From: Mycobacterium sp. ITM-2016-00316
GTDB taxonomy: Bacteria > Actinomycetota > Actinomycetes > Mycobacteriales > Mycobacteriaceae
Assembly: GCF_002968335.2 (NCBI RefSeq)
Contig: NZ_CP134398.1
Coordinates: 1,612,001-1,676,000 of the forward strand
Length of the DNA: 64,000 bases
Reading direction: 5' to 3'
Shown in pieces: positions 60,382 through 64,000 of the stretch (the stretch's first letter is position 1; each line of letters opens with the position of its first letter). Made by a program: the position numbers and the translations under genes. The notes under the pieces were generated by a model. That model was not told the origin of the DNA. It saw nothing but the letters and a program-made list of their open reading frames with translations, and did no database searches.

Positions 60382-63300
60382 TTACGCGCTCTCCAGCGAG
60401 GTGAGGGACGCCACCACATCCGGAACCGATTGCGCGGCAAACAGTTCCTCGAACGAGGGCAGGCGGCCGATCATGTCGACGTTCTTGGCGTTCTGATACA
60501 GGATCCAGCCGTAGGTTCCCAGGCTGTCCATCGACAACACGTTGCGCTGCGCCAGCGCATCCTTGTAATCGGTGATGCGTTTGTCGGCGATGAACACGGC
60601 CAGGTTCTCGTCGCTGAAATCGTCGATGGCCTCCCGCGCGAAGCGTTGCAGCTTCTGGATCAGGAAGAAGTCCTCGGTGAGCACCAGGTTGCGCACCATC
60701 TTGGCGACCCGCGGATCGGCGACATCGGTGACCCCGGGCAGTCGCGTGAGTGCCAGCCGCTGCGCCATGTTCAGCACGGTGTAGGTGTTCAGCAGCGCGA
60801 ACATGGTCTCGGTGTCCGTTTCGCCGTAACCGGGCACCGCACCGTCGAGCACCGTCTGCCCGTGGCGGTAGGAGCGCTTGAACTTGTGCACCTGGTAACC
60901 GGCCAGCGCGGAGGCCAACTCGTCGAGCAGTTCCTTGCGCGTCTTGGCCGCCAGGATCGCCTCGGCATCCTGGTACTGCAGCAGCGCCCGCGGCATCGCA
61001 TAGCTGACCTGGAGGCGCGTGACATCCCAATCCTGGAGCAGAGCAGCGGCTTTCGCCGATCCGGTGGCCTCCAGGTGCCACTGCAACATCGTGCGGGCGG
61101 CGACCTCGTGGAAGGGTGCCTCGCTGATGGGTGCCAGCAGCACCGAGTCGGCGCTGACCTTGGCGGCCAGTTCGGCATCCGGGTCGTACTGATAGAGGAA
61201 GCCGCCGCTCATCCCGTTGGCGACACCCTTACCGAAGCCACCGATGTTGAACACCGCACCGTTGGTCATGTACTCGCACAAGAACTCTCCGACGCCCTCG
61301 ACCACCGCGGTGGCCCCGGAGTTGCGCACCGCGAACCGGTCACCGGCCTCGCCTTCGACGAACAACCGGCCGCCGGAGGCGCCGAACAGGGCGAAGTTGC
61401 CGATCAGCACATTGCCGCCGGGAAGGGTCGATCCACCGCCGGGGGAGCGCACCGCGATGGTGCCGCCGCACTGGCTCTTGCCGACGCCGTCATTGCAGGT
61501 TCCGGTGTGCGTCATCGCCATACCGTCGTTGCAGAACACCCCGTAGCTCTGGCCCGCCGATCCGGTTGTGGTGATCACGACGCTGTCGGGGGTCAGGTAG
61601 CGCCGCCCACGGACATCCGTCACGACCGCAGCCCCGGTGTCGTCCTGATGGTTCAGCCTGCGTTCGATATCGATTGCCAGCTGCCCGCCGACGCTCTTGT
61701 TCTGGTTGGTCAACACCACCGGCGCCATCTCGACACCGTCGAGATCGAGTTGGCCCAGGAACGCGTCGTCGACCGCGTAGTCCTTCTCCATGTAGATCGG
61801 ATCCTCGGGCACGAAACCCCTGGCGACCTGCAGCATGGCGCGCAGGTCCAGCCGGCCGATGCTCGACGGGTGATCGAGCAGATGAAGCAGGTCGCTGCGG
61901 CCGCGGGCAGCCGCCAGGGACGGCATGCCGAGCGTGGCGAGGATCTCACGCACCTCGTGCGAGATGTTCAGCAGATACTGCGCCAGGGCGCGCGGGTCTC
62001 CGTCGAAGGCCTCGGGGTTGGTGGTCAAACCGGCGGGGCACTTGATGTTGCAGTTCTTGGCCATCACGCACTTGAGCATCATCAGCGCGGTGGTACCGAA
62101 CTCGAAGCTGTCCGCCCCGAGCAGTGCCGAGGTGATGACATCGCTGGCCGTCTGGTGTGCGCCCGAACAGCGCAGCACGACCTTCTGCCGGATCCCGTTG
62201 GCCACCAGCGCCTGATGTACCTCGGCGACGCCGATCTCGGCGGAACGCCCGGCGTACTTGAGGCTGGTGACGGCCGCGGCGCCGGTGCCGCCGGTGTTGC
62301 CGGCGACGTTGATGACATCGGCGCCGGCCTTGGCGACGCCCACCGCGATGGTGCCGATGCCCTCGCTGGAGACCAGCTTGACGATCACCCGTACCCGGGC
62401 GGCCTTGCAGTCGTGGATGAGCTGGGCGAGGTCCTCGATGGAATAGGTGTCGTGGTGCGGTGGGGGAGAGACCAGTTCCACCCCGGGTGTCCCGCCGCGG
62501 GCCGCCGCGATCTGCACGGTGACCTTGGGGGCCGGGAGCTGCCCGCCCTCGCCGGGTTTCGCGCCCTGGCCGATCTTGATCTCCAGTTCGCGCAGCATCG
62601 GGTCGGCCAGGTAGCCGGCCCATACCCCGAACCGGCCGGAGGCGAACTGTTTGATCCGGGAGCCACGGATGGTGCCGTACCGGGTGATGTGCTCGCCGCC
62701 CTCACCGCAGTTGGACAGCCCGCCCACCATGTTGGTGCCGTGCGCGACGGCCTCATGCGCCGAGGCGACCAGGGCACCGTGGCTCATGGCGCCGGATGTC
62801 AGCGTTGCCGCGATCTCGCTGGCGGGTTGCACCGCGGCCAGCGGCATCGAGTCCGGCGCGGTCTGCACCATGGCCAGATAGTCGCGGGCGGCGCCCTGCG
62901 CGCGGATCCACAGCCGGTCGACGTCGACCTCGTGGTCGACGATATCGGCGCCGAAGCGGCGCAGCAGGGACTCCGCCAAGGCCTCCAGGCGCTGCGCGCT
63001 GTGGCTCAGGCGCAGCGTGAACTCGTCACCGACCCGAACACAGGTCAGTCCACGGACCTGGAAGCTGTTGTTGCCGAACCGCGCGAACTGTCCGAGCTCG
63101 GAACGGAACTCGTCGGCGGTGTGCAGGAAGTTGACGTCGGCGGGCAACGCCAGGACATCGCGCAGGGCGGCGGGCCGGCGGGCACGCTCGGCGTTCATCG
63201 CGAATACGAAGTGCCGGTAGCCCGGGGTGATGTCGAAGCTGTTGATCGCCCGCGGCGTCATCTCCTCGAAACTGTTGTGCTGGTAGGCCTCATCGTCGAG

Positions 63301-64000
63301 GCCGAAGGCACCCTCGAGCTGGTGCAGGGGCAGCGACCGCAGGAACGCCGGATCGGTCATGTCCGGGTTCTCCGGTCGCCCCTCGTCACCGAAAGAGATG
63401 GCCTCCTCGGTCATGTCGACGAAACCCCGGACAGCGGTGGTGCCGTAGGAGTGCCCGGAACCCTCGGCGCGTTCCTTGAACAAACCGAGCAGGGGCACAT
63501 CCTTTTCGCCGGTGACCGACAGCGCGTGGTGGTGCCATTCGGCGACAGCGGCGGCCAGCGTGTCGAATCCGACACCGCCGACCACGGACACCACGTTGGG
63601 GAAGTAGCGGTGCAGCACCGGATCTCCGGTGTCCAGGTAGCTGGGTTCGAAGAACTCGCCGCCGATGTAGCTCTCCACGGTGCACAGACCCACCCGGCCC
63701 ATGGTCTTCATCAGGGACTTCTCGGCGGCCTTGGCGAACCGCTGGTAGGCGGCGGTCACCAATGTCTCATCAGGACCGAACTTCTCCTCGGCGCGCATCT
63801 GCACCGCCAGCGGGTACACCGCGGACGCGCCGAACCCGAGGACCGTCGCGATGTGATGCGAGGACGCCAGCTGGCCGCTCTCGGCGATCACCGAAACCCG
63901 CAGTCGCAGGCCCTGTTCGATGAGACGTTGGTTGATGGCCGAGACGGCGATGATCACCGGTATCGGTGCCAGGCCGGTCTCGATGTGCCGGTCGGAGATG
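60382..64000 (-). CDS. divergent glutamate-synthase-like large subunit (5' end outside window)
   Basis: About 1206 C-terminal residues of a GltB-like protein; the N-terminal amidotransferase region is off the right edge. It has a central domain, an FMN-binding synthase domain (RFGVWAGYLADPMLRELEIK, SPPPHHDTYSIEDLAQLIHD, NVAGNTGGTGAAAVTSLKYA) and a GXGXG beta-helix (GTCNDGVGKSQCGGTIAVRS). Oddities: the Fe-S motif CVMAKNCNIKCP is C-x5-C-x3-C, one residue shorter than the usual C-x5-C-x4-C; the usual GGLKTGRDV is SGAHQTASDV; and about 165 extra helical residues follow the beta-helix. A CysJ-type reductase, not GltD, is next in the operon. Possibly a glutamate synthase or related enzyme with a different electron donor. 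Confidence 0.85.
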   Translation of the reverse strand, partial: ISDRHIETGLAPIPVIIAVSAINQRLIEQGLRLRVSVIAESGQLASSHHIATVLGFGASAVYPLAVQMRAEEKFGPDETLVTAAYQRFAKAAEKSLMKTMGRVGLCTVESYIGGEFFEPSYLDTGDPVLHRYFPNVVSVVGGVGFDTLAAAVAEWHHHALSVTGEKDVPLLGLFKERAEGSGHSYGTTAVRGFVDMTEEAISFGDEGRPENPDMTDPAFLRSLPLHQLEGAFGLDDEAYQHNSFEEMTPRAINSFDITPGYRHFVFAMNAERARRPAALRDVLALPADVNFLHTADEFRSELGQFARFGNNSFQVRGLTCVRVGDEFTLRLSHSAQRLEALAESLLRRFGADIVDHEVDVDRLWIRAQGAARDYLAMVQTAPDSMPLAAVQPASEIAATLTSGAMSHGALVASAHEAVAHGTNMVGGLSNCGEGGEHITRYGTIRGSRIKQFASGRFGVWAGYLADPMLRELEIKIGQGAKPGEGGQLPAPKVTVQIAAARGGTPGVELVSPPPHHDTYSIEDLAQLIHDCKAARVRVIVKLVSSEGIGTIAVGVAKAGADVINVAGNTGGTGAAAVTSLKYAGRSAEIGVAEVHQALVANGIRQKVVLRCSGAHQTASDVITSALLGADSFEFGTTALMMLKCVMAKNCNIKCPAGLTTNPEAFDGDPRALAQYLLNISHEVREILATLGMPSLAAARGRSDLLHLLDHPSSIGRLDLRAMLQVARGFVPEDPIYMEKDYAVDDAFLGQLDLDGVEMAPVVLTNQNKSVGGQLAIDIERRLNHQDDTGAAVVTDVRGRRYLTPDSVVITTTGSAGQSYGVFCNDGMAMTHTGTCNDGVGKSQCGGTIAVRSPGGGSTLPGGNVLIGNFALFGASGGRLFVEGEAGDRFAVRNSGATAVVEGVGEFLCEYMTNGAVFNIGGFGKGVANGMSGGFLYQYDPDAELAAKVSADSVLLAPISEAPFHEVAARTMLQWHLEATGSAKAAALLQDWDVTRLQVSYAMPRALLQYQDAEAILAAKTRKELLDELASALAGYQVHKFKRSYRHGQTVLDGAVPGYGETDTETMFALLNTYTVLNMAQRLALTRLPGVTDVADPRVAKMVRNLVLTEDFFLIQKLQRFAREAIDDFSDENLAVFIADKRITDYKDALAQRNVLSMDSLGTYGWILYQNAKNVDMIGRLPSFEELFAAQSVPDVVASLTSLESA

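Follow-up and report, generated by a model that had tools for sequence, protein, structure and literature searches.

The locus examined here lies at the right-hand end of a 64,000-nucleotide stretch of Mycobacterium sp. ITM-2016-00316 (G000:C1:1612001-1676000; this whole stretch is called the window, and G000 our own genome). It carries genes for a glutamate synthase-like large subunit (GltB-like), a CysJ-type diflavin reductase and a HemS-domain protein. Positions below are window coordinates, continued past 64000 as window-equivalents.

60382..64000, extending to window-equivalent 65814 (GTG), minus strand: GltB-like large subunit, 1810 amino acids (aa) in all
62038..62070, minus strand: C-x5-C-x3-C ligand motif for [3Fe-4S] (residues 1249-1259); the motif of canonical GltB has one residue more
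60385..61005, minus strand: extra C-terminal domain of the GltB-like protein, residues 1604-1810 (about 207 aa), predicted all-helical, without a Pfam family
58638..60377, minus strand: CysJ-type diflavin reductase (FMN, FAD and NADPH domains), 579 aa from the ATG at 60377
57821..58648, minus strand: HemS-domain protein, 275 aa, an optional operon member
65927-65940 (window-equivalent, outside the window): DtxR/IdeR-type box, 113 nucleotides (nt) 5' of the GltB-like start codon

The gene arrangement agreed with an earlier, sequence-only reading of the window. The GltB-like stop codon TAA (60384-60382, minus strand) is followed by CCCG and then by the diflavin ATG at 60377, which is the 4-nt gap described there. 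The diflavin reductase, which that reading had called complete, has the Pfam domains Flavodoxin_1, FAD_binding_1 and NAD_binding_1, and the overlap with a HemS-like gene was confirmed as 11 nt, the third protein matching the HemS domain at 38 bits. When the sequence was read beyond the right window edge, the GltB-like open reading frame (ORF) proved complete, with the N-terminal amidotransferase cysteine present and GAGGAGG just 5' of the GTG start. Neither gltD nor cysI, both of which had been reported missing, was found in these flanks, so the pair has no gltD beside it as a partner. Source annotations name the large subunit glutamate synthase, glutamate synthase-related or GltA.

The large subunit resembles that of NADPH-dependent glutamate synthase (EC 1.4.1.13) throughout most of its length: GATase_2 (residues 14-413), Glu_syn_central (448-723), Glu_synthase (975-1297, 352 bits) and GXGXG (1398-1565) were all detected. 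The class II amidotransferase domain has the N-terminal Cys14 and the accompanying motifs, with the pattern CG[VF]GF in 87/88 family members, and the synthase domain has the 2-oxoglutarate/FMN motifs GEGGE, QGAKPGEGGQLP and PPPHHD in common with canonical GltB. The [3Fe-4S] ligands are also kept; their spacing, however, is C-x5-C-x3-C in all 88 members, compared with C-x5-C-x4-C in the four canonical GltBs checked (4/4). After GXGXG, about 245 aa match no Pfam family, and the extra helical C-terminal domain is present throughout the family, which formed a separate branch in the tree (support 100/99). In genome samples that include genomes already known as carriers, this domain was found in 51/61 genomes of the Pantoea genus group, 7/295 of Pantoea's order, 6/398 Pseudomonadota and 3/296 Actinomycetota (one a fragment). 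The shortened cluster loop and the additional domain are probably adaptations to the diflavin donor. The ten Pantoea-group genomes without the domain were G1012, G1020, G1026, G1028, G1030, G1034, G1038, G1041, G1043 and G1051; three of them are small (1.4-2.9 Mb). At one contig start (L106, G586:C298) the GltB C-terminal piece continues into a CpaF-like ATPase, probably an assembly chimera.

The diflavin protein is similar to CysJ in its FMN-FAD-NADPH domain order, its length and its C-terminus. Its best profile match was cysJ (606 bits) and its closest solved relative E. coli SiRFP, as would be expected if it were the CysJ subunit of a sulfite reductase that stands beside the GltB-like gene by coincidence. 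We regard this as extremely improbable: the score is below the curated TIGR01931 cut-off of 668, and no CysI over cut-off was found in our own genome (best match 121 bits, on a 596-aa frame) or in 8/21 genomes overall. Gammaproteobacteria with CysI carry a separate CysJ, which in G020 is divided between two frames. In a tree of 40 proteins, which included 26 of the 88 GltB-linked diflavins and nine CysI-type CysJ proteins, the two groups were separated by a 100/100 branch. Together with the linkage in 88/88 loci described below, these results largely refute the sulfite reductase reading. The split CysI-type cysJ of Mixta mediterraneensis (L149, G020:C34:31048-32833) consists of 400- and 279-aa frames in the assembly. 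The second diflavin protein of our own genome (550 aa) took an unresolved position basal to the GltB-linked group. Four CysJ-like diflavin modules at the C-terminal end of 1297-1432-aa frames in bearer genomes (L143, L146, L147 and L150, in G008, G932 and G004) also fell on the GltB-linked side. The two of these that were scanned with Pfam were both fused to molybdopterin oxidoreductases, presumably of the nitrate-reductase type. These molybdenum enzymes differ from the present pair in being fusions; they nevertheless provide a precedent for the use of a CysJ-like module outside sulfite reductase, and in the tree their modules lie closer to the GltB-linked diflavins than to CysJ.

The pairing of the two genes was conserved wherever it was examined. 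A contig scan gave 497 stretches encoding relatives; in the best 80 of these plus our own locus, a diflavin gene was directly downstream of the GltB-like gene in 81/81 loci. Seven further complete loci from genome searches, with identity down to 49%, had the same arrangement, bringing the total to 88/88 with intergenic gaps of -4 to 186 nt; because loci were selected by similarity, these counts do not describe a random sample. Hosts included Mycobacterium/Mycolicibacterium, Nocardia, Rhodococcus, rhizobia, Rhodobacteraceae, Methylobacillus, SAR92, Pantoea and Erwinia. The pair adjoins canonical glt genes in G207, G051 and G124, which are more distant relatives. The sequence-only reading had proposed a GltB-like enzyme with a diflavin partner and had tied this to a linkage that follows the short Fe-S motif; with the motif and the adjacent diflavin gene both in 88/88 loci, and with no gltD or cysI nearby, the proposal gains support. 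Alternatively, the large subunit could be a glutamate synthase that depends on ferredoxin or flavodoxin, with the diflavin protein acting as a general reductase for a soluble carrier, which it would recharge without docking on GltB. Passages of PMC8097209 describe a ferredoxin-dependent enzyme that functions without GltD, and the structures 1llw and 1ofd also match. This alternative appears unlikely, given an adjacent diflavin gene in 88/88 loci, the flavodoxin domain that the diflavin protein itself has, and the lack of any carrier gene recurring as a neighbour throughout the cluster survey. A dedicated, adjacent NADPH diflavin reductase gene distinguishes the pair from ferredoxin-dependent synthases and argues against ferredoxin as the donor.

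To assess what other glutamate synthases the carriers possess, 87 bearer genomes (30 + 57) were searched for the synthase domain. Elsewhere in our own genome there are two canonical gltB genes with 1532- and 1514-aa ORFs, and each has its own gltD behind it. In 28/87 genomes (9 + 19), by comparison, the family gene was the only large synthase gene and no canonical GltB was found. These were 17 genomes of Pantoea, Erwinia, Mixta and Winslowiella, a number that includes one labelled Enterobacter ludwigii EnVs2 and among which one is a complete chromosome (L062), as well as eight metagenome-assembled genomes (MAGs), where absence is weak evidence, and three others. GltD over the cut-off of 447.7 bits was absent in 27/28 of them; the exception was the MAG G981, whose assembly probably just lacks the canonical gltB. 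In the GltD search the Erwinia genomes G025 and G027 gave 651- and 660-aa frames (301 and 315 bits), a size that we take to be that of AegA/YgfT and not of GltD, G988 gave a 598-aa frame (166 bits), and the best score in the remaining 24 genomes was at most 51 bits. Glutamate dehydrogenase (PF02812) was found in 8/10 genomes whose only large synthase is the family gene and not in the other two, both SAR92 MAGs, in a search that covered this type of the enzyme alone. The genome titled Enterobacter ludwigii EnVs2 (L076/G026) grouped with the Pantoea agglomerans genus in the genome search, and its label is doubtful.

Gene order showed where the pair sits in Pantoea. The P. ananatis order sspA-sspB-[diflavin-GltB]-arcB-mtgA-rapZ-ptsN-rpoN is the same in E. 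coli MG1655, where gltBD occupies the gap. E. coli proteins match this 18-kb P. ananatis stretch at 68-95% identity, and gltD has no match in it. The pair here fills the slot that gltBD has in E. coli, an in-place replacement of gltBD. In L054, L055 and L086 the gene right after the diflavin gene resembles hemE (uroporphyrinogen decarboxylase); as we believe hemE to follow canonical gltBD in Pseudomonas, this would be a second in-place replacement.

A published phenotype bears on the function of the family. According to passages of PMC12364357 (2025), no close homologue of E. coli glutamate synthase (GOGAT) was found in P. ananatis AJ13355, its putative gltB (PAJ_RS19710) shares 64% identity with an A. 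tumefaciens GOGAT large subunit, and a gltB knockout (citing Hara 2012) led to glutamate auxotrophy; these passages mention neither a diflavin partner nor a different class of enzyme. The member from another strain, P. ananatis LMG 2665, shares 68% identity over 1832 aa with an A. tumefaciens member of the GltB-like family and 38.5% over 722 aa with a canonical Agrobacterium GltB. Because of these two values, the published gltB almost certainly belongs to the diflavin-paired family. We also considered that the large subunit might aminate another 2-oxo acid, as a synthase-like enzyme of a different pathway. The separate branch of the family and the two gltBD pairs already in our own genome would fit this idea. 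It is nonetheless very unlikely in view of the synthase motifs common to canonical GltB and the apparent need of P. ananatis for its member of the family to obtain glutamate; the iron box described next offers another reason for the redundancy. The catalytic role as a glutamate synthase is supported indirectly, by this auxotrophy and by the lack of canonical GltB and GltD in many bearers, and the best reading is that the diflavin-paired enzyme would be the only GOGAT in many Erwiniaceae.

Passages of PMC1382209 give the DtxR consensus, TTAGGTTAG(G/C)CTAACCTAA (19 bp), and its likeness to IdeR sites, and according to passages of PMC9132128 IdeR usually acts as a repressor where a single box covers the promoter. 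We scanned both strands of 23 actinobacterial loci (1,123,332 positions). All 14 readings (11 sites) matching at least 15/19 bases lay 133-201 nt before the Cys codon of the GltB-like gene, and 11 of the 12 readings at 14/19 were likewise upstream of that gene, the other being elsewhere. The exact 12-mer core TTAGGYTAGGCT occurred in 14 of the 151 loci fetched (2.42 Mb), once each and always upstream of the GltB-like gene; these represent 14/18 mycobacterial/nocardial loci. L009 matched at 15/19, and its 14-mer TTAGGYTAGGCTAA was found once, compared with 0.00 expected. L009, L011 and L039 are near-identical; at the other loci the flanks diverge and the core is kept. The core was absent from the two canonical gltBD stretches of our own genome, one of which has a 12/19 match. 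It was present in 10/10 loci with a close HemS-like gene and in 4/8 without (Fisher p=0.023; loci not independent). To our knowledge, IdeR is general in mycobacteria. The predicted DtxR/IdeR-type box upstream of mycobacterial and nocardial loci is a new finding and, with the in-place replacement of gltBD and the new C-terminal domain, goes beyond the sequence-only reading. IdeR may control the pair in these genera, with derepression under iron starvation. No Fur box was prominent in Erwiniaceae, in which no GOGAT other than the pair was found, suggesting that there it is probably a housekeeping enzyme.

We consider it likely that the pair forms a distinct class of NADPH-dependent glutamate synthase, in which the diflavin protein replaces GltD, and that in mycobacteria and nocardiae it is an iron-sparing isozyme beside canonical GltBD. 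This reading draws on the anatomy of the locus, the kept linkage and catalytic motifs, the absence of GltB and GltD from many bearers and the iron-box match. Passages of PMC8097209 describe bacterial glutamate synthase as a combination of GltB and GltD that carries one [3Fe-4S] and two [4Fe-4S] clusters. The present pair shares the four GltB domains and probably NADPH as the donor; it differs in having no GltD and a CysJ-type diflavin partner in its place, a partner that differs from CysJ itself in serving a GltB-like protein and not CysI. Glutamine would be hydrolysed at the N-terminal Cys of the large subunit, and the ammonia would pass to the FMN synthase site for reductive amination of 2-oxoglutarate. 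As judged from the domains, electrons may run from NADPH through FAD and FMN of the diflavin subunit, presumably within a complex, to [3Fe-4S] and FMN of the large subunit, so that the flavodoxin domain would do the work of the two [4Fe-4S] clusters in GltD. The pair would then need 3 Fe, compared with 11 in canonical GltBD, and short iron in mycobacteria would derepress it and keep GOGAT running.

Several observations weigh against this reading. Because our own genome holds two canonical gltBD pairs, we only infer an isozyme role there. The exact core is lacking in 4/18 mycobacterial/nocardial loci (L012, L022, L024 and L025) and in five other actinobacterial loci (four Rhodococcus-type and L104), among which only L104 has a 15/19 match, and neither a Fur nor an Irr box was enriched in Proteobacteria loci. 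G017 and G029, which have canonical GltB, gave GltD-like matches of 396-398 bits, and a real GltD can therefore fall under the cut-off. The P. ananatis knockout is known through passages of a citing paper only. Pairwise distances of the large subunit and the diflavin protein were correlated (r=0.945, 88 loci; 0/999 permutations), as expected if the two proteins travel together, and relatedness alone inflates this value.

Among the neighbouring genes, a small ORF lies 5' of the GltB-like gene in the flank read, and genes that we take from their translations to encode a KUP-type transporter and a Mod-type ABC system are upstream. An ORF at 57264-57728 (plus strand), presumably a small heat-shock (Hsp20-like) protein, is directed toward the end of the glt operon. 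Elsewhere in our own genome (L117, G000:C1:5465500-5473000, 2-3873, plus strand), a glutamine-synthetase-like end, a class II amidotransferase-like ORF (304 aa), a 169-aa ORF and a short GltB-like ORF (523 aa) stand in series, a layout that we assume to be that of the gmaS-mgsABC N-methylglutamate pathway.

On balance, we favour a wider interpretation, with less assurance: the NADPH-diflavin glutamate synthase would be a further electron-donor class, a two-gene unit of Actinomycetota and Proteobacteria, which in Erwiniaceae took over the place of gltBD. Mycobacteria and nocardiae would keep it as an iron-sparing isozyme under IdeR repression, taking on nitrogen assimilation once iron no longer suffices for GltBD, some species co-expressing a HemS-like protein for haem iron. 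Iron has been linked to glutamate synthase in other bacteria: passages of PMC3751524 report lower canonical glutamate synthase under iron limitation in Caulobacter, and passages of PMC9410917 propose gltB2 as a target of the iron-sparing RNA IsrR in staphylococci. If our interpretation is true, central nitrogen assimilation has been re-wired at its electron-input module, with iron reduced from 11 to 3 per pair. This would explain GOGAT without GltD in Pantoea, Erwinia and relatives, including an industrial glutamate producer, and would allow iron sparing in nitrogen assimilation to be tested directly.
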